A stretch of DNA of 34,378 nucleotides, taken from positions 1-34,378 of IMG/VR virus record IMGVR_UViG_3300034284_002572; one strand, 5' to 3'. The translations under genes were made by a program, and so were the position numbers. Below, piece by piece: positions 161 through 29,639 of the stretch (the first letter of the stretch is position 1; each line of letters begins with the position of its first letter). The notes beneath the pieces were generated by a model. It searched no databases. It saw only the letters and a list, made by a program, of their open reading frames with translations, and was not told where the DNA came from. The stretch is from a virus.

Positions 161-360
161 AAGAAAGAGTTAGTTAGTTAGTGTATTGGTATAAGTTATA
201 ATCACCGGACCTGCATAATATTAGAGGGTTTTTGATTGTAGTCAAGACACGATTTTTTACCAGATGTACTGCTCTCGACTTGACAAATTCCATATTTTGG
301 ATATAAGTTATGAGTAGGTTAGAAGTAGCACACCAATGACGAGGAGCTTTTAGATAAGCC
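161..360. promoter_or_regulatory. Divergent intergenic spacer
   Basis: About 200 bases separate the leftward gene (start at 160) from the rightward gene at 361, the longest gene-free stretch in the window. It holds three GTTA repeats at 169-180 and GTGTATTGGTATA at 181-193, a weaker match to the repeated GGTGTATT motif found before other genes. A ribosome binding site (GAGGAG, 341-346) serves the gene at 361. Open frames inside are short and unconvincing. Divergent promoters are expected here, but no exact start point can be assigned. Confidence 0.4.
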
Positions 361-13138: not shown

Positions 13139-13147
13139 GGTGTATTT
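13139..13147 (+). promoter_or_regulatory. Candidate phage promoter (GGTGTATT motif)
   Basis: GGTGTATTT lies in an 86-base gap, 41 bases before the ATG at 13189. It is one of five intergenic copies of GGTGTATT found in this window, all on the coding strand and at similar distances from a gene start. The A/T part here is interrupted by CC, making it the weakest of the five. A phage sigma factor as reader is an inference. Confidence 0.4.
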
Positions 13148-13188
13148 CCTATTGATTTAAGCCTCTTTCAGAGACTAAGAGTATCAAC

Positions 13189-13641
13189 ATGAACGGAAAA
13201 GAAAATCTTATCATATGGCAAAAATGGGCCGATCCATTTGGAGATGACGATCATCTGGATCAGCTTATAGATAGTCTTGAATCAGAAATGGCAGATGATT
13301 ATTCTAATTTTATAGATGAAGACTCTCAGGCTCAAACAGAAGAACCTACTGAGAAAAAATCAATTGTGAAAAGCCATAAAAATATTAGAGTAATGGCAAC
13401 GCCTATGGGTATAATTCCAGTAACAGAAAATACGGCTAGTGGTAAAATCTTTAATTTTTGGACAGGTCATACAAACTTCAATATTACCAGAAGAATAGTT
13501 GGTCTTATAGAAGAAACTGAAGGAGTTGAAACATTGGATATTTTCACTAGATATAGATTTAGAATATCTGTTGGAAAAGCATTTGATGATTCAAGTGTTA
13601 TGAGACGTATAAACGATAATGTCTATTCCTACCTAGAGTAA
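13189..13641 (+). CDS. Phage protein with conserved C-terminal domain, function unknown
   Basis: A 150-residue protein. Residues 1-60 are acidic (DPFGDDDHLDQLIDSLESEM, then a Glu/Thr-rich linker). Residues 65-150 form a compact domain: IRVMATPMGIIPVTENTASG, then a gripping strand FNFWTGHTNFNITRRI, and a final FTRYRFRISVGKAFDDSSV. The clean, well-ordered C-terminal half suggests a virion or late protein. No signal peptide or enzymatic motif is visible. It follows a GGTGTATT motif (13139) and precedes the ClpP-like gene by 6 bases, so it probably leads that transcription unit. Confidence 0.68.
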   Translation: MNGKENLIIWQKWADPFGDDDHLDQLIDSLESEMADDYSNFIDEDSQAQTEEPTEKKSIVKSHKNIRVMATPMGIIPVTENTASGKIFNFWTGHTNFNITRRIVGLIEETEGVETLDIFTRYRFRISVGKAFDDSSVMRRINDNVYSYLE

Positions 13642-13647
13642 AATTAA

Positions 13648-14319
13648 ATGAATAAAGAACCAGACATTTCATTAATACATAGTCATGGAATAGATATACA
13701 GAATAGAGAAATATATTTACATTCTTATATGTCTGACAATGAAGAAGAATCTGGTATAGACTACAGATGTTCTGTCACGTTTGAGAAAAATCTTCGCTAT
13801 TTGAATCTTTTGTCATTAGAGCCTATTCTAGTTCATATGCACTTGCCAGGAGGACATTGGCAAGATTGTTTAGGAATGTACGACGCTATAAAATTATCAA
13901 AAGCTAAAGTTATCATCCTAGCTTATGCCAAAGCAGAATCGTCTAGCAGTGTTTTATTGCAAGCTGCGGACTTAAGAATATTAATGCCAAACACGAATGT
14001 TCTAATTCATTATGGTTCATTTAGTGTCGATGCTGAACACAGCAAAGCTGCGGCCGCAGGCGTACAATGGAATGAAAGAGAGTGCGATAAGATGATTGAT
14101 GTATTCACTGATAGGTGTATGAATAGTAGTATATGTAAAGAGAAAAATTGGAAGAGAATGATGGCAAAAAAACACATCGTTTCACAATTGGCTAATAAAT
14201 GCGATTGGATTTTAACCTCAGAAGAAGCATTATATTATGGCTTTGCTGATGGTGTTCTTGGTAGCAAAAAATTTCCCAACATCGACTACCTTAAAACTTG
14301 CATCAAAAGAAAAAATTAA
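13648..14319 (+). CDS. ClpP-like serine protease
   Basis: A 223-residue ClpP/crotonase-fold protease. HLPGGHWQDCLGMYDAIKLS (65-84) matches the ClpP oxyanion strand and first helix. AYAKAESSSSVLLQAADLR (92-110) is the nucleophile segment; aligning VLL with ClpP makes S98 the catalytic serine. VLIHYGS (118-124) carries H121, and KCDWILTSEEALYYGFADG (184-202) carries D186 and the usual C-terminal E-A-x-x-Y-G-x-x-D. All three triad residues are thus present. In tailed phages such proteases often mature the prohead, but this gene lies away from recognised capsid genes, so a role as a ClpP replacement or other processing enzyme is also possible. Confidence 0.82.
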   Translation: MNKEPDISLIHSHGIDIQNREIYLHSYMSDNEEESGIDYRCSVTFEKNLRYLNLLSLEPILVHMHLPGGHWQDCLGMYDAIKLSKAKVIILAYAKAESSSSVLLQAADLRILMPNTNVLIHYGSFSVDAEHSKAAAAGVQWNERECDKMIDVFTDRCMNSSICKEKNWKRMMAKKHIVSQLANKCDWILTSEEALYYGFADGVLGSKKFPNIDYLKTCIKRKN

Positions 14320-14972
14320 TGTATATCGAATATGCCTGCTATGATTATTCACTATCTGATGAAGAGATAAAAAATAATGTAGCTCTAGCCATTCAGCTAG
14401 GAGTTAAACATTTCGGACTGCATTACATCAACATATCTTTGATTAAAGGTCTCATAGAAGAGCATGGCTTATCTATATCTTCTCCTTTAGATTATCCTTA
14501 TGGATTATTAGACTCTAAAAATAGATTATCGACTATAGGTTCTGCTATAAAGGCTGGAGCAAAAACTATTGATTTAGTCGCCCCTGCTAAGTTTATAGCA
14601 AATAGAAAATATGACAAATTACGAGATGATATTAAAAATAGTTTAGTATTATGTCAAGAAAATAATGTTGATCTGAGATATATACTAGAATATAGAGTAT
14701 TCAACCACGAAACATTAGCCAAAACTTGCCAAATTTTTAAAAGTCTTGGTATTGAATATGTCATGCCTTCAACTGGACATATGTTAGACGATATCAATGA
14801 TAACATAATTGCATGTAAATATCTATCCAGTAAATCTAAAATACAGACTATTTGTAATGGCAATATTTGGATAGAAAAACAGGCTGAATCATTGAGGAGT
14901 TCAAATATTTATGGAGTAAGGCTACACCACATACCCTCTATAGCGCTTTTCTTGAAAAATAATAGTCTTTAA
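14319..14972 (+). CDS. DeoC-like TIM-barrel protein lacking the aldolase lysines
   Basis: A 217-residue protein with the order of deoxyribose-phosphate aldolase: SSPLDYPYGLLDSKNR (54-69), AGAKTIDLVAPAKF (79-92), LRYILEYRVF (119-128) and GIEYVMPSTGHML (144-156). In true aldolases the STG motif is preceded by F-I-K-T, whose lysine forms the Schiff base; here it reads Y-V-M-P, and the later K-x-x-G-G strand reads IQTICNGN. So both catalytic lysines seem absent, while the phosphate-binding STG is kept. ATG 14319 is chosen because it gives TAATG coupling to the ClpP-like gene; an earlier in-frame ATG (14298) would lie within it. It may bind a sugar phosphate or catalyse another reaction. Confidence 0.72.
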   Translation: MYIEYACYDYSLSDEEIKNNVALAIQLGVKHFGLHYINISLIKGLIEEHGLSISSPLDYPYGLLDSKNRLSTIGSAIKAGAKTIDLVAPAKFIANRKYDKLRDDIKNSLVLCQENNVDLRYILEYRVFNHETLAKTCQIFKSLGIEYVMPSTGHMLDDINDNIIACKYLSSKSKIQTICNGNIWIEKQAESLRSSNIYGVRLHHIPSIALFLKNNSL

Positions 14973-15029
14973 TTAGGTTTTGGGGTATATCTAGTAGAAC
15001 CATCACCACTTTCAATAATGGAGATTAAA

Positions 15030-15557
15030 ATGGCCGAAATGCAACAAAATAGTGGAGCTGTCACAGGCACATCAACCAAAAACAACGGCGGGTCAATTAT
15101 AGCTGGTGGTACAAATCCAAGCAGAAATTTGATCAAGAAAAGTCCAAAAGGTTATGATGTTGGAGTATTCGGTTCTGTGGTTGTTGAGAGTAGTCTAGTA
15201 GGTAACGCAAAAGCCGTTAGCGCTGGAACATTTTCTCACAATCATGTCAAGCCCTTAAGTGCTAAGGTTACAACAGAATTAGCCGGCGTAAATACTAATG
15301 CTTTACTAAAAGCAGACAATAAGGTTACTAGAAGTATCCACAAGATTGAATCTGTAGTTACTAATAGAACAGCTACAGCTTTTAGAGCTGGATTCAACTT
15401 CTATACCGGTAGATTTGTTGGTAGTGTCACAACCGCTACAGATAGTCTTGGTAGTGACGGTGCTGCTAATCCAACAGCCGCAGTTCCAGGTAAATTAACT
15501 TATCAAGTAGGTAATGATGCTACTGTTGTCGCCTATAAGGCAAAGACTTCTGCTTAA
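15030..15557 (+). CDS. Virion-type protein, short paralogue
   Basis: A 175-residue Gly/Ser/Thr/Ala-rich protein, likely a structural (virion surface or fibre) protein. Its whole length aligns with the first ~170 residues of the protein at 16004: both begin MA[EQ]xQQN, then TSTKNxGGS, VGVFGS, and the most conserved block GTFSHNHxKPL. Beta-rich composition, no cysteines and no signal peptide fit a virion protein. ATG 15030 is preferred to ATG 15018 because GGAG (15020-15023) is then correctly spaced and because the paralogue begins at the equivalent residue. A strong hairpin follows the gene, as expected for an abundantly expressed protein. Confidence 0.72.
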   Translation: MAEMQQNSGAVTGTSTKNNGGSIIAGGTNPSRNLIKKSPKGYDVGVFGSVVVESSLVGNAKAVSAGTFSHNHVKPLSAKVTTELAGVNTNALLKADNKVTRSIHKIESVVTNRTATAFRAGFNFYTGRFVGSVTTATDSLGSDGAANPTAAVPGKLTYQVGNDATVVAYKAKTSA

Positions 15558-15590
15558 TATAATTTATTGTAATATATAAACGACATAAAT

Positions 15591-15621
15591 AAGCCAATGA
15601 TGCGTAAAGTGTCGTTGGCTT
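15591..15621 (+). terminator. Rho-independent-like terminator
   Basis: AAGCCAATGATGC pairs with GTGTCGTTGGCTT around a five-base GTAAA loop, a 13-base-pair stem including a few G-U pairs. It is followed by TGTTTACTTT, a T-rich but interrupted tract. It lies 33 bases after the stop of the virion-type gene and 25 before the next ATG. It is the only strong intergenic hairpin seen here. Confidence 0.7.
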
Positions 15622-15646
15622 GTTTACTTTATAGAAAGACCAACCC

Positions 15647-15964
15647 ATGTCAGAAAACATTATTCATTTCTGGGAGAATATTGCAACCACTAGTATCGGT
15701 ATAATTGTTACTATGGTTGGTTTTTGGGTGGCGATAGGAAGAAATATGGCCACAAAATCAGAAGTATTAGTAATGATTGAAACTCAATCACCATATCTTC
15801 ATGATAAACAATTTATTATGGAAAGATTAGCTTCTAATAAAGAAAGTCAAGCAGCTTTTGCTCTAGCTCTTCAAAGAAACACAGAAGTTATGACAGAACT
15901 AAAAATTCAAATAGCGATGCTTGGTAAAACCCTAGAAGCTTTAGAAGATAGAATAGAAAAATAA
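15647..15964 (+). CDS. Small one-pass membrane protein with coiled coil
   Basis: A 105-residue protein. Residues 12-30 (ATTSIGIIVTMVGFWVAIG) form one transmembrane helix, followed by RNMATKSEV and a long helical region (ERLASNKESQAAFALALQRN onward) that ends LEALEDRIEK and is likely a coiled coil. Topology and size resemble phage membrane-tethered proteins such as spanin-, holin- or virion-associated factors. It lies between the two paralogous virion-type genes, so it might be a structural cofactor instead. AGAAAGA (15634-15640) is a weak ribosome binding site. Function is not established. Confidence 0.65.
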   Translation: MSENIIHFWENIATTSIGIIVTMVGFWVAIGRNMATKSEVLVMIETQSPYLHDKQFIMERLASNKESQAAFALALQRNTEVMTELKIQIAMLGKTLEALEDRIEK

Positions 15965-16003
15965 ACTAAAATTTTCCTAAAATCATATTTCACGGAGAAC
16001 AAT

Positions 16004-17479
16004 ATGGCTCAAATTCAACAAAACGGATCTAATGTAACAGGCAACTATTTTCAAGGAACTTCGACTAAAAACAAGGGAGGATCTGTTGTTAGTGGAGGTG
16101 CTACTTCACAAGAGTTAAGTATTCGTTCTTCTAATAATACTAGTGTAGGAGTTTTTGGATCTACTGTTGCTAATAGCAATATTGTAGGAAATACTAAAGC
16201 TCTATCGTCCGGAACATTTTCTCATAATCATATCAAGCCCTTAACCGCTGGCGTAACATCAGAACTAGCAGGAATAAATAATGCGAATGCTTTTAAAGCA
16301 TCAAACAATACCAATAGAAGTGTCAATAAACTAGAAAATATTATCACAAACAATACTGCTTTTTTGTTTAGAAATAATGGCTTTAACGTCTCTACGAATA
16401 AATACGTTGGAACAGTAAATGATCAAAATGATGGTTTTGGATCTGATAATTCATCTAATACTAATTCTAGCACTAGTAATAAAGTTGCATACAAAACAGG
16501 TAAAAATAGACCAGTTATAGATAATCGTGTAGAAAATTTTGTATCCACCCCAGACAGCACATCAACTCCGTCGCCATCTTCAAATATTAGTCCCACTCCC
16601 ACCCCCACAGTTACTTTAACTCCAAGTGCTTCTCCAGTGGGTTTGGTATCTACAAATAGTGCCAACTATAATAATTGTGCAGGTAAGCCTTCTAGCGTAG
16701 GTACCAACGGTCGAAGCAGTTATTATGGAACATATGATATGTCTGGTAATATTTGGGAATGGCTAGAGACGGGAACAGACGCAAACAACAAGGTTTTAAG
16801 AGGAGGCAATTACGATTATGATGCTTCCTACATTACATCATCTGCTAGAAATTATACAGATAAAACTTCTGCTAATGACTTTTTTGGCTTTAGAATAGCT
16901 GCGTCATCATTACCTTCCGTTTATCCTAATATGGTATTGGTTGGAGACGTTAATAATAGTGCGGACTCTAGTGGATACGGAGCATTATCATATCAATACT
17001 ATATAGGTAGATATGAAGTTACAAATAGTGACTATGTAGAGTTTTTAAATGCTGTGGCACAAACGGATTCCAATGGGCTCTATAATAGCTCTATGAATTC
17101 CTTGTCTGTAGGCGGCATTACCAGAACAGGATCTGTTGGAAGTTACCAGTATGCTGCAAAAACTAACATGGGTAATAAACCAGTGAATTTTGTAAGCTGG
17201 GCAGATTGCGCTAGATATTGCAACTGGCTATGCAACAACAAGCCTTCTGGTGCTCAAACATCTAGTACTACAGAAAACGGAGCTTATGATATGAGCTTAT
17301 CCAATCCTCCACGTAACAATAGCGCTGTTGTTTTTATTCCAACCGAAAATGAATGGTATAAGGCAGCTTTTTATAAGGGCGGATCGACTAATGCTGGATA
17401 TTGGTTATATGCTACTCAAAGCAACACAGCGCCTAATTGCGTTAGTGTTAATACTTCCGGGGACGGTATACCTGTTTAA
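16004..17479 (+). CDS. Virion display protein with circularly permuted FGE/SUMF1 domain
   Basis: A 491-residue protein in three parts. Residues 1-180 are paralogous to the protein at 15030 (shared TSTKNKGGS, VGVFGS, GTFSHNHIKPL). Residues 181-215 are a Ser/Thr/Pro linker. Residues 219-480 hold the FGE-sulfatase/SUMF1 fold, a C-type-lectin-like fold, but in swapped order. The part that normally ends the domain comes first (NSANYNN at 218-224, YGTYDMSGNIWEW at 241-253, VLRGGNY, FFGFRIAAS). The part that normally begins it follows (MVLVGDVNNSAD at 310-321, YYIGRYEVTN, NKPVNFVSWADCARYCNWL at 391-409, FIPTENEWYKAAFYKGG at 444-460). The two pieces meet without visible loss or duplication. GGAG (15994-15997) precedes the ATG. 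Ligand-binding display is likely. Confidence 0.82.
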   Translation: MAQIQQNGSNVTGNYFQGTSTKNKGGSVVSGGATSQELSIRSSNNTSVGVFGSTVANSNIVGNTKALSSGTFSHNHIKPLTAGVTSELAGINNANAFKASNNTNRSVNKLENIITNNTAFLFRNNGFNVSTNKYVGTVNDQNDGFGSDNSSNTNSSTSNKVAYKTGKNRPVIDNRVENFVSTPDSTSTPSPSSNISPTPTPTVTLTPSASPVGLVSTNSANYNNCAGKPSSVGTNGRSSYYGTYDMSGNIWEWLETGTDANNKVLRGGNYDYDASYITSSARNYTDKTSANDFFGFRIAASSLPSVYPNMVLVGDVNNSADSSGYGALSYQYYIGRYEVTNSDYVEFLNAVAQTDSNGLYNSSMNSLSVGGITRTGSVGSYQYAAKTNMGNKPVNFVSWADCARYCNWLCNNKPSGAQTSSTTENGAYDMSLSNPPRNNSAVVFIPTENEWYKAAFYKGGSTNAGYWLYATQSNTAPNCVSVNTSGDGIPV

Positions 17480-17517
17480 TCAACAAAAATATTTAAAACA
17501 AAAGAGGGAATAGAATT

Positions 17518-17754
17518 ATGAATTTTGTACTTAAAGATACGTTAACTATTAATAATTTCATCGTCAAGCTATATCATAAAACTAATGAAGATATAGATAT
17601 GTCTATTGTTAATAGTGCTCTAGTAGATACTGTAGCATTAGACTTTCCTAATAAGATCATAGAAAGACTAGAAAATATTGCCGGTGTATCTAAAGTAGAG
17701 ATATACAATAGCAACAGCGAGTTGTTAATTAATAGTGAAAAAATAACCCTATAA
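17518..17754 (+). CDS. Small phage protein between structural genes
   Basis: A 78-residue soluble protein predicted as a beta-alpha-beta unit: NNFIVKLYHKT (12-22), a helix around DMSIVNSALVDT, and a last strand VSKVEIYNSNSELL. There are no cysteines, membrane segments or catalytic motifs. AGAGGGAA (17503-17510) is an excellent ribosome binding site. Its location between the FGE display protein and the tail-fibre genes suggests a structural or chaperone function, but no family was recognised. Confidence 0.6.
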   Translation: MNFVLKDTLTINNFIVKLYHKTNEDIDMSIVNSALVDTVALDFPNKIIERLENIAGVSKVEIYNSNSELLINSEKITL

Positions 17755-17770
17755 ATTTGGAGAATAAATT

Positions 17771-17992
17771 ATGCCAAGACCATTCACAGATATTACAACA
17801 TCAATTAGTTCTAATCCAATTAAAAATGGCACAGTAATAGCCTCTGCTACTTTTACAGGAAAATATGCTTTAAATAATAGTCATGTTAAAAATACGCCAG
17901 TAATATCCAGCATATCTTCTAAGTATGGCAATAGATTCTATAATGGTATTTTTGTTCAATTGGTTGGCGATCAAACAGTAGTTGGGGGTTAA
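17771..17992 (+). CDS. Small tail/virion-like protein
   Basis: A 73-residue Ser/Thr/Asn-rich protein with alternating small polar and hydrophobic residues (TDITTSISSNPIKNGTVIAS), typical of beta-structured phage fibre or tail proteins. It ends FVQLVGDQTVVGG directly before the ATG of the 17993 gene, so the pair is translationally coupled. GGAG at 17759-17762 precedes the ATG. The exact role is unknown. Confidence 0.58.
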   Translation: MPRPFTDITTSISSNPIKNGTVIASATFTGKYALNNSHVKNTPVISSISSKYGNRFYNGIFVQLVGDQTVVGG

Positions 17993-19225
17993 ATGAGTAT
18001 TAAAAGAATAAATGAATTTCCAGAAGGTAGCGGTAATCTAAGTTCAGATGACGTTTTTCTATTTATGGATAATCCTGCAAATAGTGGAGTCACAAGAAAA
18101 GTTTCATTAAATGAACTAAGTAATGCTATAGGAGTCGTAGGTTCTTCATCGGATAGATTAATTAAAGACAACAAAGAAGTTATACTTAATGGAAATGGTT
18201 TTTTAACATTACCTAGCGGTAGTATACTAAGTGAAACAAATAATACAGTATCCTTAATGCCTCCAACAGCAGCTTCCGGACAGAGCTTGGTAATTCGTCC
18301 AACCGTAGCTCTTTGGCTAATTACTTCTAGTAATTATATCGAATATGGCAATCCTATAACTATTTCAGTAACCCTACAAAGCTGGTCTTATTTTGGAACA
18401 GTCAATTATGTTATTACTGGAACCGGAGTAACTGAACAATCATTAGGTCGAGCACTAACCGGAAAGTTAACTTTCTCAAGCGTCTCTGCTCCAGACACTG
18501 AAACTATCACTTGGACCATACCAGCTAATAGTAGTATCAACGAATTTACTCTTACATTAACAAGTGTTGATGGAACAAGACCGGGTCCAGAGGTTGCAGA
18601 CGCAAACCTTTATCCGACACTATATTACAATTTTGAAGAATCTAATGGAATGCCTACTGGTCAATTCATTACTGTAACTAATAATGGAATATCTAGCTCA
18701 GAACATAGTCACGTTCATCTTGTATCAGGAGATCCCTCAACAGTTGATATTTACTTAGGTGATGATGATCAATATGTTAAGATCGAAAAAGATGGTGGCG
18801 ATGTTATTATCGGTACTGACTTAAATACTCATCTCTGGACTTTTGATACGGATGGTAAGCTAATATTACCAGGAGGATATGCTCAAGTTGTTGTGGAGAA
18901 CGATAGTGGAGTTCGTATTGGAACAGCGGGAACTAATGTTGCTCCTAATAGCCAAATTAAAATTGGCGGTGCTGAACATGCGTTTGAAATCTTCGGAGGG
19001 CCTCCTGGATATAGCTGGGCGTTTGATGGAGATGGTGAACTAACATTACCAGTTAGTGGTAGTATAACATTCCCAGATAATACAACCCAAACTTCTGCTG
19101 GTATACCAAGCAATACTGGATTGGCTCCAAACTCAGTTAGTATTACTAATATGGTTAGTATATCTCAAGCAAACTATGATGCTCTTATTACTAAAAATCC
19201 TACTACTTTGTATGTTATTTCATAA
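17993..19225 (+). CDS. Tail-fibre-like protein with repeated beta units
   Basis: A 410-residue protein. Its N-terminus, IKRINEFPEGSGNLSSDDVF (3-22), followed by DNPANSGVTRKVSLNEL, is the attachment motif common to phage tail fibres. Short repeated units follow: NGFLTLPSGSIL (68-79), WTFDTDGKLILPGG (282-295) and WAFDGDGELTLPVSGSITFP (342-361), each a W-x-F-D-x-D-G-x-L-x-L-P or related strand-turn. Residues 105-195 look like an independent beta-sandwich insert. The C-terminus ANYDALITKNPTTLYVIS is a frequent fibre ending. It presumably contacts the host surface. It shares a base with the next gene's ATG (TAATG). Confidence 0.8.
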   Translation: MSIKRINEFPEGSGNLSSDDVFLFMDNPANSGVTRKVSLNELSNAIGVVGSSSDRLIKDNKEVILNGNGFLTLPSGSILSETNNTVSLMPPTAASGQSLVIRPTVALWLITSSNYIEYGNPITISVTLQSWSYFGTVNYVITGTGVTEQSLGRALTGKLTFSSVSAPDTETITWTIPANSSINEFTLTLTSVDGTRPGPEVADANLYPTLYYNFEESNGMPTGQFITVTNNGISSSEHSHVHLVSGDPSTVDIYLGDDDQYVKIEKDGGDVIIGTDLNTHLWTFDTDGKLILPGGYAQVVVENDSGVRIGTAGTNVAPNSQIKIGGAEHAFEIFGGPPGYSWAFDGDGELTLPVSGSITFPDNTTQTSAGIPSNTGLAPNSVSITNMVSISQANYDALITKNPTTLYVIS

Positions 19226-19590
19226 TGTCTATATTTTTCAACAATTTTGAACTATCTTCTATTAAATTAGGAAACACCAATGTTTCTAAAATATTCTTAG
19301 GCGAAAATTTAGTATTCTCTCTGTGTCCCGATTCAACTTCTAGTGTTAAGATGACGGGATGGGTTTCTGGTGATCGAATTCTTGCTCCTATAGGATACGC
19401 CCCTTATGGGCGTGAGACTTATATATACGGTGATGAGGTTGTCCGTTATGAAACGGGCGTATGGCTCTATATGAACACTAGTGTAGAACTTGCTAGAGCA
19501 TATAGTTACGCAGAATGGCCTTGGTTAGTAGATTGGCCATCCCCATATGCTGCTGAGAAAGTTCGTCAAGACGGCACATCATGCATATAA
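19225..19590 (+). CDS. Short fibre-associated protein
   Basis: A 121-residue protein beginning FELSSIKLGNTNVSKIFLGE (8-27), the repeated I-x-L-G-x-x-x-V-x-K-I-x-L-G motif common in tail-fibre and structural proteins of environmental phages. The remainder is aromatic-rich (GYAPYGRETYIYGDEVV, then WPWLVDWPSPY), suggesting a compact tip or adhesin domain. It starts within the stop of the fibre gene (TAATG) and is followed by a 105-base gap with a promoter motif, so it ends the tail-fibre unit. Specific function is not known. Confidence 0.68.
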   Translation: MSIFFNNFELSSIKLGNTNVSKIFLGENLVFSLCPDSTSSVKMTGWVSGDRILAPIGYAPYGRETYIYGDEVVRYETGVWLYMNTSVELARAYSYAEWPWLVDWPSPYAAEKVRQDGTSCI

Positions 19591-19645
19591 TGATGGCATT
19601 ATTGACTGTCAGCGAATTTGTTGACTAAAACAGATAATACTAATT

Positions 19646-19656
19646 GGTGTATTATA
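19646..19656 (+). promoter_or_regulatory. Candidate phage promoter (GGTGTATT motif)
   Basis: GGTGTATTATA is followed by a T-rich stretch and lies about 40 bases before the ATG at 19696, in a 105-base gap after the tail-fibre unit. With the copy at 26866 it is identical over 11 bases. It would start the membrane-protein/protease operon. Confidence 0.55.
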
Positions 19657-19695
19657 TTTTTAGATGTATAAAGTTATCTTTAATTGGAGCTTAAA

Positions 19696-20034
19696 ATGGT
19701 AAAACCCGGCTATAGAACTAGTGAATTCTGGTTTACTTTTGTGAGCTTTCTATTTAGCGGATTATATCTGGTCGGATTACTAGATAGTAATACTCAAAAA
19801 GAAAATTTAATTCAAGAAACTAGCAGAGGCTTAGAAGCTACTATTCTTATTATTGGACAATTAATGGTTTTGTTTAAGTATGTCAAAGGAAGAACTGATC
19901 TAAAGAAAACTTGGTGGAGTACCGCAACTCCAGAAGAAAGAAAAGAAGCTAATAAAGCTAATGCTAAAAAAAAGAAAAAAAAGATAATTCCTAAAAAACC
20001 AGTAGCAATTCCTTCAAATCAGAATAAAAATTGA
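19696..20034 (+). CDS. Holin-like two-pass membrane protein
   Basis: A 112-residue protein with two transmembrane helices, residues 10-28 (EFWFTFVSFLFSGLYLVGL) and 47-63 (EATILIIGQLMVLFKYV), joined by a short polar loop, and a strongly basic Lys-rich tail (NAKKKKKKIIPKK). Two hydrophobic helices and a charged tail fit class II holins, which open the membrane at lysis. ATG 19696 is preferred over an in-frame TTG at 19684, because TTGGAG then serves as ribosome binding site. Position before the protease and membrane genes supports a lysis role, though membrane-anchored virion factors would look similar. Confidence 0.62.
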   Translation: MVKPGYRTSEFWFTFVSFLFSGLYLVGLLDSNTQKENLIQETSRGLEATILIIGQLMVLFKYVKGRTDLKKTWWSTATPEERKEANKANAKKKKKKIIPKKPVAIPSNQNKN

Positions 20035-20047
20035 TCTTTTTTGGATC

Positions 20048-20060
20048 GGTGTATTTAATA
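20048..20060 (+). promoter_or_regulatory. Candidate phage promoter (GGTGTATT motif)
   Basis: GGTGTATTTAATA followed by AATAGG lies 26 bases before the ATG at 20086, in a 51-base gap. It is the second motif copy within 410 bases, so the 19696 gene may be a one-gene unit or both starts may feed the operon. Confidence 0.5.
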
Positions 20061-20085
20061 AATAGGAACAAGAAAGAGATTTAAT

Positions 20086-20532
20086 ATGAATACAATATTG
20101 TCTAATCAAGCTTTAAGTATAGAATTATCTAGTAGACTAGAAACATTAATTAATCAAGTTAAGGTTTCTTTTTCTAATAATAAAGCTGTTGCAGTAAATC
20201 AAGCGTGGGGGATTTTGCAATTAGCAGTAGCAGAATCTGTTCAAGCTATTGAGGATAATAATCCTTCTCTTAAGGGATCAAATAAAAAAGAAATTGCTTT
20301 GAGTATGATAAGTAATTTTTACGATAGGGTTTTTTTAGTAGTAAATATCCCGTATGTTCCGGCGATGTTGCAGCCTATTATACAGAAGTACATCAAGGCT
20401 CTTCTGATGTTATTGGTAAGCTCAACCATAGATTCTATGGTAGAGATTTTCAGAAAAACTGGAATATTTGTTGATCCAAATACCGTTATTGATCCAGTAG
20501 TTGACAATGTGCCAAAGGTTTCAGATAAATAA
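20086..20532 (+). CDS. Helical protein with hydrophobic segments, function unknown
   Basis: A 148-residue mostly helical protein. Residues 1-75 are amphipathic (LETLINQVKVSF, AWGILQLAVAESVQAIE). Residues 85-122 are hydrophobic (VVNIPYVPAMLQPIIQKYIK, ALLMLLVSSTIDSMVEI) and might embed in or cross the membrane. It ends FRKTGIFVDPNTVIDPVVDN. No signal peptide is visible. Repeated proximity to holin-like and protease genes suggests a lysis or envelope role. AAGAGAT (20073-20079) precedes the ATG. No named family. Confidence 0.6.
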   Translation: MNTILSNQALSIELSSRLETLINQVKVSFSNNKAVAVNQAWGILQLAVAESVQAIEDNNPSLKGSNKKEIALSMISNFYDRVFLVVNIPYVPAMLQPIIQKYIKALLMLLVSSTIDSMVEIFRKTGIFVDPNTVIDPVVDNVPKVSDK

Positions 20533-20547
20533 AAAAGGAAATATCAA

Positions 20548-20934
20548 ATGAATTTTACAGAAAGCTTCCAAGAGTTTAGTAGCAAGTTGAGCACAACGGA
20601 TTTGGCTCTTTATGCCGGTGTCGGTCTTGTATTATGGGTTTTGTTTAAGGATAAACTTAGTCCAGTACAAAAACTCCTTGCGGGCTTAGTGGATAAGTTC
20701 AAGGGTGCTGGTGGCTCTGCGTTGCCAGTAGTTACAGTGCCGTCAGTATCTCCAGTGGTTGTTCCAAAGAGAACTGATGCTGAGGATACCTTTTTTAAGT
20801 TAGTAGTTTCGTGGAAACAAACTCGTGACCTAGCTGTTCAGAGTGGTTGTGCTGAGGCTGTTAAGGTTGCTGATCAAATGTTTCCATTTTTAAGTCCCAA
20901 CGTATGCAAAAAAAATGAGGATAAGGTATCATGA
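20548..20934 (+). CDS. Membrane-anchored protein, function unknown
   Basis: A 128-residue protein. Residues 16-34 (TTDLALYAGVGLVLWVLFK) form a transmembrane helix; a basic segment follows, then a Val/Pro/Ser linker (ALPVVTVPSVSPVVVPKR, 58-75). The C-terminal domain contains a helix around DTFFKLVVSWKQTRDLAVQS (80-99) and two cysteines (C101, C120). The layout (anchor, flexible spacer, small domain) suits an envelope-spanning factor such as a spanin-like or tether protein. AAAAAGGAAA (20531-20540) precedes the ATG. It overlaps the next gene by 4 bases. Confidence 0.62.
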   Translation: MNFTESFQEFSSKLSTTDLALYAGVGLVLWVLFKDKLSPVQKLLAGLVDKFKGAGGSALPVVTVPSVSPVVVPKRTDAEDTFFKLVVSWKQTRDLAVQSGCAEAVKVADQMFPFLSPNVCKKNEDKVS

Positions 20935-21422
20935 GTCAAAAAAATATATTACTAGGATTAGCCGCTTTATTAATTGTCGTCGGTCTGCTTAAGCCAGAGT
21001 TTTCAAATATCCTTGGTCCAAACAAACCAGTCGCAGTAGATGTCTTGGAATTACCAGTACCAACAAATGAAGCAGTTAAAAAAGAAGCAGATGATGTTGT
21101 TACTCTTCTAAAAGAAGCAGGGGCTAAAAGCGATGCCAGAAGACTAAGAGACCTATACATTGATCTTGCAAAGCTTGTTGAGCTTGATGGAGAAGATGAA
21201 GTTGTTAAGAGTACTGAAGAAATTCGTCAAGCTAATAGTTTGGCTGGTGTTATGCTTAGACTAGATATTAAAGGTAAGTATCCTGATCTAGCTAAAGAAA
21301 CAAAAGAAGTAGTAGTAGCTTCAATTGGAGATGATCAAATTCTTTTATCTAAAGAGCTAAGAACTAAGGCCGTAGAAGGTCTTAATGCTTTAGCTTGGGC
21401 CTGTAATCAAGGATCAAAATAA
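20931..21422 (+). CDS. Membrane-anchored helical protein, function unknown
   Basis: A 163-residue protein with an N-terminal transmembrane segment (residues 5-21, NILLGLAALLIVVGLLK) acting as signal anchor, a short Pro-rich neck (LELPVPTNEAV) and a long alpha-helical domain (residues 45-160) rich in Lys/Glu/Ala. It resembles the upstream 20548 product in overall plan, and the two may form a complex. There are no catalytic motifs. ATGA overlap with the preceding gene and TAATG with the protease gene show tight coupling. The role is inferred only from context as envelope-associated. Confidence 0.62.
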   Translation: MSQKNILLGLAALLIVVGLLKPEFSNILGPNKPVAVDVLELPVPTNEAVKKEADDVVTLLKEAGAKSDARRLRDLYIDLAKLVELDGEDEVVKSTEEIRQANSLAGVMLRLDIKGKYPDLAKETKEVVVASIGDDQILLSKELRTKAVEGLNALAWACNQGSK

Positions 21423-22348
21423 TGCCAAGACTCTCTCCGAAAGAACTATACGATAATTATCGCAAAGGATTCAGTGGATGCATATGGGAGCAGCATGTAT
21501 ATGACCATTTGATGGAAACTTCCAAGTATCCGTTATTTGGTGATGCCAGCAAAAGAATTAGTGGTAGTGGTAAAGGGAAACTTTCAACACCATACAAAAG
21601 CGTGTTAAAATTTGATAAGAATCCTTATAATGAAAGACAAACTACTGGAGATTGTGTGAGCCATGGAACACGAAATGCTTGTGATGTTACGCGAGCCGTA
21701 GAAATAGATATACACAATGAGAGAGAGGATTGGATAGCAAAAGGAGCAACAGAAGCTATTTATGGAGCAAGGGGGTTTTCTGGAGAAGGCATGAGTTGCT
21801 CTAGGGCAGCAGAGTTCGTTAGTAAGATCGGTGGAATAGTAGTAAGAAAAAATTATCCTGGGGTTGCTGACTTTAGCAAGTATAATGGTAGTCTAGGTGC
21901 TGGTTGGGGTGGTCGTGGATTACCAGATAAGGTAATAGACACAGCCAATGATCACCAAATCAAGACCGCTTCATTAATACGAACAGTAGAAGAAGCTAGA
22001 GATGCTCTTGCTAATGGCTATGGACTAGCAGTATGTTCTAATTATGGTTTTAGTAATACAAGAGATAAAAAGGGATTTGCTAGAACGTCTGGAAACTGGG
22101 GACATTGCATGGCTTGGATAGCATGTGATGATACCGGTAGCGAGCCAGCATTTCTAGTCCAAAATAGCTGGGGTAAATGGAATGACGGAGGACATCCAGA
22201 ATGGGGTCCAATTCCAGATGGGTCATTTTTAATCCATGCTGATGTAGCAGCTGGTATGTTGTCTGCTAATGGATCTTATGCCTTTAGTGGATTTGACGGT
22301 TTTCCTCTCCAAAAGCTACCAAGCTACGGATTTGAAGATTATCTATAA
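21422..22348 (+). CDS. Papain-like (C1-fold) cysteine protease
   Basis: A 308-residue protein with the order of papain-family peptidases. ERQTTGDCVSHGTRNACD (71-88) contains the oxyanion glutamine Q73 and nucleophile C78. TSGNWGHCMAWIACDD (222-237) has catalytic H228. AFLVQNSWGKWND (243-255) carries N248 of the NSWG motif. No signal peptide or propeptide is evident. It follows two membrane-anchored proteins and shares one base with the upstream stop. Phage C1-like peptidases are uncommon; it may cleave a host surface or peptidoglycan crosslink peptide at lysis or entry, or process a virion protein. The fold is well supported, the target unknown. Confidence 0.85.
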   Translation: MPRLSPKELYDNYRKGFSGCIWEQHVYDHLMETSKYPLFGDASKRISGSGKGKLSTPYKSVLKFDKNPYNERQTTGDCVSHGTRNACDVTRAVEIDIHNEREDWIAKGATEAIYGARGFSGEGMSCSRAAEFVSKIGGIVVRKNYPGVADFSKYNGSLGAGWGGRGLPDKVIDTANDHQIKTASLIRTVEEARDALANGYGLAVCSNYGFSNTRDKKGFARTSGNWGHCMAWIACDDTGSEPAFLVQNSWGKWNDGGHPEWGPIPDGSFLIHADVAAGMLSANGSYAFSGFDGFPLQKLPSYGFEDYL

Positions 22349-22382
22349 AATAATTTAGCTAAAATAATCGAAAATAGAAATT

Positions 22383-22394
22383 GGTGTATTAATA
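22383..22394 (+). promoter_or_regulatory. Candidate phage promoter (GGTGTATT motif)
   Basis: GGTGTATTAATA, preceded by AAATT as at 19646, lies 32 bases before the ATG at 22426, in a 77-base gap after the protease gene. It matches the other copies in both sequence and spacing. Confidence 0.52.
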
Positions 22395-22425
22395 CATATA
22401 CCTTCTTTCTACAGAGATTATTTCT

Positions 22426-22623
22426 ATGAGACTAATAGATAGAATAGCTCTAAATAGAGCAATACACATGCTTCTAGATTTTATCTTAGCTATTGTTAAG
22501 ATGTTTGATAAAAGCACTCCAGAAAATAAGCCCGATGGTCCTGTTAAGCCAAAACCATCACCTAAACGCAGACCTTTAAAAGATCTGATAGATAGTATAG
22601 TTCCATGGAGAGAACAAAAATGA
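22426..22623 (+). CDS. Small membrane-associated protein with basic tail
   Basis: A 65-residue protein. Residues 8-27 (LNRAIHMLLDFILAIVKMF) form an amphipathic or transmembrane helix, followed by a Pro/Lys-rich linker (STPENKPDGPVKPKPSPKRR) and a conserved-looking closing block, PLKDLIDSIVPW. Similar small proteins occur next to the cysteine-protease gene in other environmental phage genomes as far as I recall, without known function. AGAG (22413-22416) precedes the ATG, and the stop overlaps the next ATG (ATGA). Confidence 0.62.
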   Translation: MRLIDRIALNRAIHMLLDFILAIVKMFDKSTPENKPDGPVKPKPSPKRRPLKDLIDSIVPWREQK

Positions 22624-22970
22624 ATAAATTATTTGTTGGTTTATTTTGCGCTGGACTATTGTTTGCCCAATCGTCCTACTATGGCTCAACAACAGCCCCA
22701 GTAACTCTTGCTGGAGGCATTATTAAAGCAAAGCATGTACAAGAAGTATCACAAAAATATAAAAGAAAAGACTGTCCAGTTTGTAAGGGAAAAGGTTGGT
22801 ATATGAGTGGTGATGGTATTTTAAAAATTGATTGCACATATTGTGAGCCGGATAAGGGATCCTTATCAATAGGAACAATTAAATCAATAGCTCCAACACC
22901 AAGAACGTACCCTGCCCCAGTAAATTGTCCAAATGGTAATTGTCCAATTCCTAAAACATCAAGGAGATAG
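22620..22970 (+). CDS. Secreted Cys-rich (zinc-finger-like) protein
   Basis: A 116-residue protein with an N-terminal signal peptide, MNKLFVGLFCAGLLFAQSS, cleavage probably near residues 17-20. The mature part has a DnaJ-like Cys pair arrangement: CPVCKGKGWY (52-61) and CTYCEPDKG (72-80), each CxxC followed by Gly or acidic residues, then a Cys/Pro-rich end with NCPNGNCPI. Metal binding or disulfide formation outside the membrane is plausible. ATG 22620 is preferred over an in-frame ATG at 22605 because GGAGAG then acts as ribosome binding site and a proper signal peptide results. The role is unknown. Confidence 0.68.
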   Translation: MNKLFVGLFCAGLLFAQSSYYGSTTAPVTLAGGIIKAKHVQEVSQKYKRKDCPVCKGKGWYMSGDGILKIDCTYCEPDKGSLSIGTIKSIAPTPRTYPAPVNCPNGNCPIPKTSRR

Positions 22971-22975
22971 TAACT

Positions 22976-23374
22976 ATGGCAGATAACGAAAAGCTGAAAG
23001 CTATAGCTATTAAAATTCTAGAAAAATCCACTGTGCCCAAAGATAATTTATATGGATTCGCTATTGTTACCATCCTGATGATCATCAGCATAATTTTAAC
23101 TTGCGTAAGAATACTGCAAGAGTGCAATAAGAATAAACTAACAGCTCAATCTACAGCAGAAGATAAATATGCGATGTATAGTGAACAGCTACATACTTTC
23201 AGCGAACGTAGGGGATGGTTCACCAAAATGAAAATCAAGAAAATTTTAAGAAGAGAAATGAAAAAAGAAGATTATGAAAAATATTCTTTAGCAATACTCA
23301 ATGCTTTGTTAGAGACAGGAGAAGTTCTCACGGAGGATGAAGTAGTTACTTTAGTGGAGGCAGCAAATGTTTAA
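22976..23374 (+). CDS. Single-pass membrane protein, function unknown
   Basis: A 132-residue protein with one central transmembrane helix (residues 25-46, LYGFAIVTILMIISIILTCVRI) flanked by charged regions. The N-terminal side (1-22) is Lys-rich and could be cytoplasmic; the C-terminal 85 residues are helical and basic (WFTKMKIKKILRREMKKEDY) then acidic (LLETGEVLTEDEVVTLVEA). AAGGAGA (22961-22967) is a strong ribosome binding site. It overlaps the next gene by 8 bases. No family is recognised; envelope-related from context. Confidence 0.63.
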   Translation: MADNEKLKAIAIKILEKSTVPKDNLYGFAIVTILMIISIILTCVRILQECNKNKLTAQSTAEDKYAMYSEQLHTFSERRGWFTKMKIKKILRREMKKEDYEKYSLAILNALLETGEVLTEDEVVTLVEAANV

Positions 23375-23612
23375 TATAATAGTATGGTGTGTTTATGGCT
23401 TATTTGTCGGTTCAATAGCTAAAAGTATAGTGCCCGGAGAAGAAAATTTCGGTTTCTGGAAAACTATAGCTTTAGGGGTTGCAGGATCTTACTGCGGAGG
23501 TATAATAACCTATCTGCTGGGCATGACTCCACTACAACCTACCGGGATAGTGATGGGAGTAGCAGGAGCAATTGCTTCCTTAGTGTTTTACAAAAAGCTA
23601 TTAGAAAAATAA
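23367..23612 (+). CDS. GlsB/YeaQ/YmgE-like membrane protein
   Basis: An 81-residue three-helix membrane protein of the GlsB/YeaQ/YmgE type (also called transglycosylase-associated protein). Characteristic features are WCVYGLFVGSIAKSIVPGEE (7-26) with the A-K-x-I-x-P-G loop, a glycine-rich second helix (IALGVAGSYCGGIITYLLG) and a third helix ending LVFYKKLLEK. The bacterial family is linked to stress response with unclear biochemistry. In a phage it could support membrane function during lysis, or be a holin-like pore. It follows the previous gene with an 8-base overlap. Confidence 0.72.
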   Translation: MFNIIVWCVYGLFVGSIAKSIVPGEENFGFWKTIALGVAGSYCGGIITYLLGMTPLQPTGIVMGVAGAIASLVFYKKLLEK

Positions 23613-23625
23613 TCGACTCTATATA

Positions 23626-24093
23626 ATGAGACCAATCTGGACGGACTATTTCTTGGGATTAGCGAAAGTCGTTTCCCAAAGGAGCCATGACATACACACT
23701 CAACATGGTTGTGTTATCACGGATCAAAATAATAGAATACTAGGAGTAGGATATAATGGATACCCAAGAGGCTTAGATGATACTAATCTGCCAAAGAATC
23801 GTCCAGATAAATATCCTTGGATGGTTCATTCTGAAAGAAATGCTCTATCTAACTGTGTTGTTAGACCAGATGATGGCATAGCATATGTTACTGGTCAATG
23901 CTGTAATGATTGTATTATGGCTTTATGGCAGGAAGGCGTTCAAACAGTTTATATGTGTGATGATCATGGAACACATTTATTTGATGACAATGCTAAAAAA
24001 ATATTTGATACTTTTGTAGAGATGAGCGGAATAAAAATTATTAAAGTAGCACCAGACCTGTCTTGGCTAAAGAGTCTTTGCGGTGTAATATGA
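23626..24093 (+). CDS. Deoxycytidylate (dCMP) deaminase
   Basis: A 155-residue zinc-dependent deaminase converting dCMP to dUMP for thymidylate synthesis. The substrate loop GYNGYPRGLDD (42-52) is typical of dCMP deaminases. The zinc and catalytic motif is VHSERNAL (67-74), with H68 and E70, and the second zinc site is CCNDC (92-96), where C93 and C96 replace the more usual P-C-x-x-C. Length is right for the family. It lies before a tiny membrane protein, the ribonucleotide reductase and the dUTPase, forming a deoxynucleotide-supply cluster. Confidence 0.9.
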   Translation: MRPIWTDYFLGLAKVVSQRSHDIHTQHGCVITDQNNRILGVGYNGYPRGLDDTNLPKNRPDKYPWMVHSERNALSNCVVRPDDGIAYVTGQCCNDCIMALWQEGVQTVYMCDDHGTHLFDDNAKKIFDTFVEMSGIKIIKVAPDLSWLKSLCGVI

Positions 24094-24227
24094 ATGTACA
24101 AAGTTTATTTTTTTATCTGTCAATATTTTATTTATTATATCTGGAATATATCGGTGATCCTAATGTTAATAAGCAGTTTCACATCACCGTCATCCTCGGC
24201 CTCATTGCATTACTAAATAGGAGATAA
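24090..24227 (+). CDS. Tiny hydrophobic membrane protein
   Basis: A 45-residue frame starting in an ATGA overlap with the deaminase stop and ending one base before the reductase ATG. Residues 5-20 (SLFFYLSIFYLLYLEY) and 30-42 (QFHITVILGLIAL) are two hydrophobic stretches. The last codons, AGG AGA TAA, double as the ribosome binding site for the reductase, so translation may couple the two. No family is known. The exact fit between two genes and the coherent membrane profile support it, but a coincidental open frame cannot be excluded. Confidence 0.5.
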   Translation: MNVQSLFFYLSIFYLLYLEYIGDPNVNKQFHITVILGLIALLNRR

Positions 24228-24228
24228 T

Positions 24229-26421
24229 ATGTCTGCACTTCAAGAACTACAAAACTATACATTCGTTAGTAAATATGCTCGTTGGTTAGAAGATAAGAAT
24301 CGCAGAGAAACCTGGAAAGAGGCTGTTGATAGAGTACGTGAAATGATGCATACTCAATATGATTCTTTTGGAATAGCAGAAGATATTGATTGGGCATATG
24401 ATATTATGTATAAGAAGAAGGTTCTCGGTAGTCAAAGAGCATTACAGTTCGGTGGAGATCCTATCTTAAAACGTCATGCCAAAATATATAATTGCACAGC
24501 AAGTTATTGTGATCGTTTAAGATTTTTTCAAGAATGTTTTTGGTTATTATTGTGTGGGTCTGGTACTGGATTTAGTGTGCAGAAACACCATGTTGCTAAA
24601 CTACCGACACTAGAACACGAAGTAGAAAGTGATCAAGCTGTTAAATATGTAATTGATGATAGTATTGAAGGCTGGGCGGATGCTTTAGGAGTTCTATTAA
24701 GTTCATACTTCAGCAAGCCTGTCGAAGAGTTTAAACAATACAAAAACTCCCACATTGCATTTGATTATTCCAATATTCGTGCAAAGGGATCATCACTAGC
24801 GTCTGGTGTTGGTAAAGCTCCTGGATATGAGCCATTAGCTAATGGTCTTGAGAAGATCAGAGCTTTACTAGATAGGTGTATCCGCAATGGACAAAAAAAG
24901 CTAAGACCTATCGATGCTTATGATATTGTTATGCATAGCAGTGATGCTGTTTTATCTGGTGGAGTTAGAAGAAGCGCATCTCTAGCACTATTTAGTCATG
25001 ATGATGACGAGATGGCCAAAGCCAAAACAGGTAATTGGTATGTAGAAAATCCACAAAGAGCCAGAAGCAATAATTCTGCATTACTTCTAAAGAGCGAAAC
25101 TACTTTTGAAGAATTTTCCGGTTTAATGCAATCAGTGAAAGAATTCGGAGAGCCGGGTTTTATTTGGAGTGAATCAACAGAGATGATATTTAATCCTTGT
25201 GTTGAAATTGGAATGTGGCCTATTGATGAGGCTAGTGGCAAGAGCGGATGGCAAGGCTGCAATCTCTCCACAATCAATTGCTCTAGCGTAGACGATGAGG
25301 AAGATTTCTATGAGAGATGCAAAGCAGCAGCTATTATAGGAACGCTACAGGCTGGTTTTACCAAGTTAGATTATCTTGGACCAACTAGTGAAAAGATTTT
25401 TGAAAGAGAAGCTTTGCTTGGAGTTTCGTTAACTGGAACTATGGAAAAGCATGATCTTGTATTGTCAGAAAAGACATTAACTAAAGGTGCAAAAATTGCT
25501 GTAGAAACTAACAAGCAAATTTCTAAAAAGATTAATATAAATCAAGCAGCAAGAGTGACATGCTTGAAACCAGAAGGAACATCATCAAGTATGTTGGGTA
25601 CTAGCTCTGGTATTCATCCACATCACGCCAAACGATACATACGTCATGTTCAAGCCAATATTTTAGAGGCACCATACCAACACTTCAAGAAAGTAAACCC
25701 GCAAGCCTGCGAAAAATCATCGTGGTCTGCGAATAATACTGATGAAGTAGTTAAGTTTCCAATAGAAGTACCAGATGGTGCTAAACTAAGAAATCAATTA
25801 CCAGCAGTAGAAATGCTCTCTGTTGTAAAAGAAACACAAAAGAACTGGGTTCACTCTGGTAAGAATAGATCATTATGCACACAAGAGTATTTGAGTCATA
25901 ATGTGAGTAATACTGTCACAGTTAAACCAGACGAATGGGAATCTGTAACCAAATACATTTACGATAATAGAAAGTATTTTGCAGGCATATCCTTGATTCC
26001 GCAAAGTGGAGATAAAGATTATCCTCAAGCTCCTTTTACTACAGTATATACGAGCAGAGAAATTGTTAAAGAGTACGGAGATGCTGCTTTGTGGTGTTCT
26101 GGACTAATAGAACTTGGTCTCAATTATTTTAATAATAACCTATGGTCTGCTTGTGATTATGTTAGTTTAAATCAAGGTAAAGATGGTGACGATGAAAATA
26201 AGCTTATATTCGCCGTCAAGATGAAAAATTTTGCAGGTAAATACTTTGATGGAGATGTTAGAAGATTAACATACTGTATGAAAGACGTTTATAACTGGAA
26301 GATCTATTGTGATCTGTACAATAGTTTTGGTAAAGTAGATTATACTCAGCTATTAGAGACTGAAGATAATACTGCTGGTATTGAAGAAATTAGTTGTGCT
26401 GGAGGAGCTTGCTTACTATAA
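24229..26421 (+). CDS. nrdJ: Adenosylcobalamin-dependent ribonucleotide reductase (class II)
   Basis: A 730-residue monomeric reductase of the ribonucleoside-triphosphate type, reducing ribonucleotides with a B12-derived radical. The radical cysteine lies in FNPCVEIGMWP (321-331): N322, C324, E326 form N-x-C-x-E. Partner cysteines are C89 (YNCTAS) and C344 (QGCNLSTIN); the spacing from C324 to C344 is longer than in the Lactobacillus enzyme. KPEGTSSSMLGTSSGIHPHH is the conserved phosphate/substrate-binding segment. The swinging thiol pair is C723 and C728 in the tail CAGGACLL. Length matches the roughly 740-residue family. AGGAGA precedes the ATG. No small-subunit gene is expected or seen. 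Confidence 0.93.
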   Translation: MSALQELQNYTFVSKYARWLEDKNRRETWKEAVDRVREMMHTQYDSFGIAEDIDWAYDIMYKKKVLGSQRALQFGGDPILKRHAKIYNCTASYCDRLRFFQECFWLLLCGSGTGFSVQKHHVAKLPTLEHEVESDQAVKYVIDDSIEGWADALGVLLSSYFSKPVEEFKQYKNSHIAFDYSNIRAKGSSLASGVGKAPGYEPLANGLEKIRALLDRCIRNGQKKLRPIDAYDIVMHSSDAVLSGGVRRSASLALFSHDDDEMAKAKTGNWYVENPQRARSNNSALLLKSETTFEEFSGLMQSVKEFGEPGFIWSESTEMIFNPCVEIGMWPIDEASGKSGWQGCNLSTINCSSVDDEEDFYERCKAAAIIGTLQAGFTKLDYLGPTSEKIFEREALLGVSLTGTMEKHDLVLSEKTLTKGAKIAVETNKQISKKININQAARVTCLKPEGTSSSMLGTSSGIHPHHAKRYIRHVQANILEAPYQHFKKVNPQACEKSSWSANNTDEVVKFPIEVPDGAKLRNQLPAVEMLSVVKETQKNWVHSGKNRSLCTQEYLSHNVSNTVTVKPDEWESVTKYIYDNRKYFAGISLIPQSGDKDYPQAPFTTVYTSREIVKEYGDAALWCSGLIELGLNYFNNNLWSACDYVSLNQGKDGDDENKLIFAVKMKNFAGKYFDGDVRRLTYCMKDVYNWKIYCDLYNSFGKVDYTQLLETEDNTAGIEEISCAGGACLL

Positions 26422-26849
26422 TGCCAGTATTTTTTAAAAAACTAGACCCCAAAGCTAGCCTACCATCTAGAAACAATGTGTCTGATGCTGGGGCTGATTT
26501 GAGATCAATAGAGAGTATCATAATACCTCCATTGTCTCGTGCCCTTATTAATACAGGATTGTCTTTAGAGATTCCTTATGGATTTTATGGAAGAATAGCT
26601 CCAAGATCGGGACTTGCCGTTAAATATGGTATTGATGTATTGGCTGGGGTTGTAGATAGTTCTTATCGCGGCCCTCTCGGTGTGGTTCTATATAATACAG
26701 ACAAAGAAAAAGAGTTTGTTGTCAATGTTGGAGACAGGATTGCACAGATTATATTTGAACAACATTGGAACTTTAAAATGGAAGAAGTATCCGAACTGTC
26801 AGATACTAGTAGGTCAAATAATGGATTTGGCTCTAGCGGTATAAAATAA
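26421..26849 (+). CDS. dut: dUTPase
   Basis: A 142-residue trimeric-type dUTP pyrophosphatase with all five motifs: I, DAGADLRS (23-30); II, PRSGLA; III, GVVDSSYRGPLGVVLYN; IV, GDRIAQIIF; V, SNNGFGSSG near the C-terminus. It makes dUMP and keeps uracil out of DNA, working with the deaminase and reductase upstream. ATG 26421 is chosen over an in-frame upstream ATG (26394) because it gives TAATG coupling to the reductase and the normal N-terminus. The 68 bases after it hold a promoter-like motif. Confidence 0.94.
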   Translation: MPVFFKKLDPKASLPSRNNVSDAGADLRSIESIIIPPLSRALINTGLSLEIPYGFYGRIAPRSGLAVKYGIDVLAGVVDSSYRGPLGVVLYNTDKEKEFVVNVGDRIAQIIFEQHWNFKMEEVSELSDTSRSNNGFGSSGIK

Positions 26850-26865
26850 CACAACTACAGTTAAC

Positions 26866-26876
26866 GGTGTATTATA
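26866..26876 (+). promoter_or_regulatory. Candidate phage promoter (GGTGTATT motif)
   Basis: GGTGTATTATA, identical over 11 bases to the copy at 19646, lies in the gap between dUTPase and the PhoH gene, about 42 bases before the likely TTG start at 26918. A GTG inside the motif (26867) would open a frame, but this is better read as the promoter than as a start codon. Confidence 0.55.
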
Positions 26877-26917
26877 GTACTAGTTGGCACCTATCCTCTG
26901 TAGTTAAAGGGCGTAAT

Positions 26918-28211: not shown

Positions 28212-28215
28212 TTAA

Positions 28216-28623: not shown

Positions 28624-28628
28624 AGAGT

Positions 28629-28976: not shown

Positions 28977-28980
28977 TAAT

Positions 28981-29636: not shown

Positions 29637-29639
29637 GTT

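Follow-up and report, generated by a model that had tools for sequence, protein, structure and literature searches.

The DNA analysed here (the window) is a complete IMG/VR record of 34,378 bases, itself a fragment of a phage genome, in which the short sequence GGTGTATT recurs ahead of genes. Its recurrence raises the question of whether the phage has a promoter of its own and, if so, which sigma factor reads it. Considering its strand-specific conservation, its geometry, the classes of genes that it precedes and the absence of a -35 partner, it is very probable (about 0.83 in our estimate) that GGTGTATT forms the core of a phage-specific late promoter with a single element, common to a family of large uncultivated tailed phages, whose largest records measure 190-244 kb.

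Copies of the motif in the window

Exact GGTGTATT is present five times in the window, always on the + strand, never on the - strand and always between called genes, with 38-52 bases separating the first G from the next start codon (Table 1). Shuffled versions of the window held 1.01 copies on average and four at most, and none of 100 shuffles reached five. The initial annotation had given the same five positions on one strand and in intergenic gaps, which are borne out here, and was also correct in finding the copies at 19646 and 26866 identical over 11 bases (GGTGTATTATA).

When a matrix derived from 228 family sites was run over the window, seven sites exceeded 11 bits, all on the + strand, and no site on the - strand exceeded 8 bits. 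Of two fainter relatives listed previously, the one at 9699 is real: GGTGTA is found in 33 of 43 diverged orthologous upstream regions, and the element, within the 3' end of the preceding gene, heads a run of genes that includes the sigma gene at 12082. The other, at 181, is unsupported, as it did not score in the matrix scan and sits in the divergent early region; conversely, the variant at 14982 had been overlooked.

Table 1. Positions of putative promoter elements and related features in the window and, where a handle is given, in related records (L, locus; G, record).
Feature	Position	Strand	Matrix score	Placement or description	Orthologous upstream regions
Phage sigma factor P0001, 197 aa	12082..12675	+		Two-domain sigma70/ECF type with region 4; candidate motif reader	
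Putative late promoter element GGTGTATATT	9699..9708	+	13.5	29 bases ahead of ATG 9728	
Putative late promoter element GGTGTATTTC	13139..13148	+	13.7	Exact; 50 bases ahead of gene 13189	GGTGTA in 6/53; GGGGTAT-like variants in others
Putative variant late promoter element GGGGTATATC	14982..14991	+	11.9	48 bases ahead of ATG 15030	GGTGTA in 14/26; GGGGTAT in several others
Putative late promoter element GGTGTATTAT	19646..19655	+	19.1 (window's best)	Exact; 50 bases ahead of ATG 19696	Retained in 27/45
Putative late promoter element GGTGTATTTA	20048..20057	+	15.1	Exact; 38 bases ahead of ATG 20086	Retained in 5/14
Putative late promoter element GGTGTATTAA	22383..22392	+	16.5	Exact; 43 bases ahead of ATG 22426	Retained in 7/16
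Putative late promoter element GGTGTATTAT	26866..26875	+	11.8	Exact; ahead of PhoH-like gene (start about 26912-26918)	Retained in 21/28
Host-type early promoter-like site (CTTGACA + -10-like ATATAAGT)	279..312	+		De novo class; ahead of gene at 361	TTGACA retained in 3/4
Host-type early promoter-like site (CTTGACT ... TAATATTAT)	213..246	-		De novo class; ahead of divergent gene ending at 160	
Internal GGTGTAT[TC] copies	G008 235969; G006 14259; G009 150952; G003 48431; G002 106373; G019 11159			Inside gene after portal	
Second sigma-like gene	L213:7096-7773 (G008 227096-227773)			Relatives L309-L388	
FGE-sulfatase, DUF1501 and subtilase with N-terminus SLTVESLENRKLLS	16004-17479; L243:14146-15387; L212:16611-18218				
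Single tail-region genes	G001 13918-29316; G008 13704-33068			5,132 and 6,454 codons	
IMP dehydrogenase/GMP reductase domain protein	7530-8660			In run with glycosyltransferase	

Enrichment and conservation in related phages

A collection of 50,697 phage records, searched by megablast and with the sigma protein, contained no direct relative of the window phage, and relatives were therefore drawn from IMG/VR by means of the sigma and PhoH proteins. Genes were called by a simple script in twelve long records, each read whole. In the related loci, GGTGTATT was counted 221 times forward and 12 times in reverse against about 41 and 47 expected, numbers that serve only as a guide because the loci partly overlap. 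A de novo search of six relatives and the window ranked GGTGTATT top among the 8-mers of gaps preceding genes, 44 of which contained it against 1.35 expected (P about 1e-49). Across twelve relatives and the window, gaps ahead of genes contained 0.520 copies per kb, against 0.071 for the reversed word, 0.0226 on the coding sense strand and 0.0054 on the antisense strand. The initial annotation had held that equal frequency inside genes would speak against a promoter; gaps ahead of genes are instead 23 times denser than coding sense, and the search of related phages that it had proposed finds the motif far above chance and clustered 20-60 bases before starts.

All 12 relatives show a forward bias of the GGTGTA core, including those in which the sigma has only 50-55% identity. 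Of 225 non-redundant diverged orthologous upstream regions at the seven site genes, 113 retain it, compared to 6 of 307 regions for a control set of nine other genes (Fisher P about 1e-43); gene 16004 was excluded from this set, as the motif is carried by 11 of its 24 orthologues though not by the window. Counting the exact 8-mer genome-wide in 19 records (196 copies vs 116 of the reversed word) is a weak test, since many true sites vary at positions 7-8.

Structure and geometry of the element

The 228 non-redundant sites give the consensus tttGGTGTATwwtAt, in which a T-rich stretch from -5 to -1 is followed by G93 G100 T95 G98 T100 A100 T82 (percent) and then by A/T. The logo contains no -35 partner, with at most 0.07 bits upstream beyond -9, and further downstream has T at +14 in 61% of sites and purines at +15/+16. 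This T/purine signature would fit a transcript start 7-8 bases past the core, and the logo as a whole appears as expected of a -10-like element with a start at that distance.

Among GGTGTAT copies in gaps, 108 of 136 lie 20-60 bases before a start, and copies within the preceding gene also tend to fall 20-80 bases ahead of the following start. Where copy and start are closest, only about 12-17 bases separate the first G from the beginning of the Shine-Dalgarno sequence, so the element cannot occupy a -35 position. The same spacing bears on the idea that the element, comparable to the MotA box in T4 middle promoters, is an activator site at about -30 with a host -10 downstream of it. Such a site might be expected to look alike, as a single conserved box ahead of genes, and one box is what the logo has; however, with the closest start codons 25-30 bases off and the Shine-Dalgarno at 12-17 there is no space for a -10, and no TATAAT-like element occurs at any fixed downstream distance in the 228-site logo, which makes an activator site very improbable.

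In the head operon, which is without gaps, six of seven genomes have a copy 33-46 bases ahead of the gene that follows portal, and sites of the same type are found at the ends of upstream genes. A separate observation concerns a conserved GGTGTAT[TC] copy within the gene that follows portal (Table 1). It lies about 720-820 bases ahead of the next start and may represent an internal promoter of the capsid genes or else a stretch of conserved protein sequence.

Two probable promoter classes and their target genes

De novo analysis also yielded a second class of about 140 sites, CTTGACA-N17-TATAAT, which by its form we take to be a host-type promoter. It precedes UvdE, a DNA polymerase III alpha-like gene, a DNA glycosylase and many small genes, as well as rIIA/rIIB-like genes (read by eye, without a family match). 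The GGTGTATT class precedes capsid-adjacent genes, a 5,132-aa tape-measure-sized gene, fibres, and genes for a trypsin-like exported protease, DUF1501, PhoH and HNH proteins. The two target sets are essentially disjoint; five genes that seemed to have both classes proved to be misread TTGACA...GGTGTAGAAT-like early promoters and were rejected. The label "late" is suggested by the kinds of genes and by the contrast with the host-type class, while some targets (PhoH, HNH endonucleases) are not classical late genes and count against it. In the window, the two host-type sites point away from each other within 213-312. The T4-type TATAAATA was considered as a class and rejected, having no specificity for gaps ahead of genes (25 gap-forward vs 15 reverse).

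The comparison of the two classes also bears on whether a phage sigma is needed at all, since the element might be an extended -10 promoter of a host sigma (housekeeping or ECF). GGTG-TATTAT does resemble an extended -10, and the -10 of the early class, TGTAGAAT, is similar, the motif finder sometimes confusing both. However, GGTG is near-invariant, yet the -7 T is present in only about 50%, the -35 typical of this phage's host-type class is absent, and the target gene sets are disjoint, leaving a host sigma an improbable reader.

Intrinsic terminators lie just upstream of 17 of 159 sites, compared to 14 of 600 control gaps (P 2e-5), and of 1 of 138 early sites. A terminator followed by the element is the usual layout in which the end of one operon adjoins the beginning of the next. 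At several hairpin terminators, the T-run passes straight into the T-tract of GGTGTATT (L018 13831, L021 13814, L052 13785 and others), where terminator and late promoter apparently overlap. With strong terminators placed immediately before many copies, few transcripts from upstream would extend to the element, which argues against its working in RNA as a processing site or translation signal. Although its 5' leader distance from starts would suit such a role, that distance varies from 25 to 80 bases and the element is missing inside operons, so that a role in RNA is scarcely credible.

Two repeated elements of roughly 60-110 bases were additionally noticed ahead of early genes (L212, L211 and other early regions), namely GCACTTAGGGC...GGCCGG...GACGTAAGTCCTTAT and AATCC..CGGATTTGG.....GATAGTCAGCGAGAAT; neither matched an Rfam family in L211/L212.

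Candidate sigma factors

The product of the gene at 12082 (P0001) matches Sigma70_r4 with an E value of 1.2e-13 (PF04545, 50.8 bits, cut-off 24.1) and, over residues 37-191, the two-domain sigma70/ECF profile TIGR02937 of NCBIfam (53.0 bits, cut-off 42.9); the Pfam region 2 model alone gave no match to it. Its predicted fold matches solved sigma factors. The initial annotation had described this protein as T4 gp55-like, a designation that has to be withdrawn, as similarity to gp55 is not detectable (hhalign probability 0.15%) and a clear region 4, absent from T4 gp55, is present; its proposal of a phage-specific late promoter different from the T4 TATAAATA is upheld by the comparative evidence. 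A scan of genome contigs for cellular homes of the sigma found one close relative only, on a 5.5-kb contig of a Chitinophagia MAG, which is too little for a host call.

The 12082 protein is a plausible reader of the motif but not the only candidate: a second sigma-like protein is encoded by every one of the 16 near-complete relatives in which the terminase region is included; since these genomes carry both, co-occurrence cannot separate the two, and genomes without the second gene, where tested, also lack the terminase region. The second protein (210-225 aa) combines a region 2 with a Cys-rich insert, and no region 4 is recognised in its C-terminal part; its gene lies upstream of the terminase genes and is absent from the window fragment. 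Sigma70_r2 was matched in seven genomes, and a low-confidence structure model contains a domain similar to sigma region 2 (probability 0.96, with 2.4 A over 71 columns against the SigE N-terminal domain), whereas the two-domain sigma profile scored 20 bits, under the 42.9 cut-off. A conserved TTGAC-N16/17-TATTAT host-type site precedes its operon, and the protein could thus be made early. The insert has a conserved CxxC...C...C pattern, the C-terminal part is degenerate, and a regulator-like gene and the terminase adjoin the gene; the protein occurs in hundreds of IMG/VR contigs and has no match in isolates.

Comparison with known phage systems

In phage phiEco32, the sigma factor gp36, without region 4, recognizes one element, tAATGTAtA, transcription starting 6-8 bp beyond it, while gp47 of phage 7-11, which has region 4, reads bipartite GTAAtg-16-aCTA late promoters (PMC8948821); T4 gp55 is likewise a sigma without region 4 that uses a single-element promoter (PMC7892883). 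The phiEco32 middle/late system (PMC8948821, PMC4281155) shares with the present one a single element with TGTAT and no -35, a phage-encoded sigma, structural gene targets and early genes on host sigma70 promoters; to its starts at 6-8 bp corresponds the putative start deduced here from T at +14 and the purines at +15/+16. The two differ in that two G rather than two A precede TGTAT, the phage lineage is a different and much larger one, and the clearest sigma, that at 12082, has region 4, which gp36 does not. The T4 late system (PMC7892883, PMC2988020) resembles it in its single -10-like element, the lack of a -35 and, as envisaged here, a phage sigma on host core. Nevertheless, this is not a T4 gp55 system, because neither a class of TATAAATA elements nor a gp55 homologue without region 4 was found when both were tested; T4 Gp23 and tail-sheath families were not detected in these phages either, the Gp23 search having had no positive control. 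Late transcription in phage 7-11 is comparable in that a phage sigma with region 4 acts on host core at late genes, but its promoter is bipartite rather than single-element.

By these analogies, the motif would be a new promoter sequence, in a lineage without isolates, working like the phiEco32 and T4 late systems. A literature search returned nothing relevant on GGTGTATT or GGTGTA as a phage promoter.

The comparison bears directly on the reader. A sigma with region 4 is expected to use a -35, as in phage 7-11, and none is seen, which counts against the 12082 protein as reader and not against the promoter. The published link between single-element promoters and sigmas lacking region 4 favors the second protein, which also has in its favor its region 2 match and predicted domain, its presence in all near-complete relatives with the terminase region and its possible early synthesis. 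On the other hand, its sigma assignment is weak compared to that of the 12082 protein, and no separate promoter class was found that would remain for the latter. Given the strength of its sigma assignment and its place in the run led by the 9699 element, we regard the 12082 sigma as the likeliest reader of GGTGTATT, with about half of the likelihood; somewhat more than a third falls to the second protein, reading the same late promoter, and the remainder to a host sigma or another reader. A combination is conceivable but rather unlikely, in which two unrelated phage sigmas serve one class: the region-2-only factor, made early from its host-type promoter, would open GGTGTATT and trigger the 12082 sigma, which would then take over or amplify without a -35 despite its region 4.

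Proposed mechanism

In the scheme that we favor, the host sigma would serve early genes through TTGACA-N17-TATAAT promoters. Once combined with a phage sigma, host core RNA polymerase would bind tttGGTGTATwwtAt as a -10-like element and open the A/T stretch. Transcription would start about 7-8 bases beyond the core, around +15 counted from the first G, and give leaders of roughly 10-60 bases. Synthesis of the phage sigma would in this way switch on the genes for head, tail, fibres, exported protease, PhoH and others, and the 12082 sigma would boost its own synthesis, since its gene is in the run led by the conserved 9699 element. As to polymerases encoded by the phages themselves, no beta domain of a multisubunit enzyme was present in 13 records, and a search for a single-subunit enzyme, run without a positive control, was negative.

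Implications and additional observations

As the searched phage collection holds no isolate of the family, these results provide its first regulatory map, comprising early genes, late genes and the signal, and the 228-site matrix allows late operons to be read in hundreds of metagenomic genomes. With a single-element motif and sigmas both with and without region 4, the family could also serve to test the proposed rule that region 4 dictates a -35.

Several other genes deserve mention (Table 1). FGE-sulfatase, DUF1501 and a subtilase with the N-terminus SLTVESLENRKLLS suggest, as a lead, that the host may belong to the Planctomycetota-Verrucomicrobiota group. The tail region has single genes of 5,132 and 6,454 codons, tape-measure-like in size and place, which point to a very long tail. 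The window also encodes a protein with an IMP dehydrogenase/GMP reductase domain, in a run with a glycosyltransferase.
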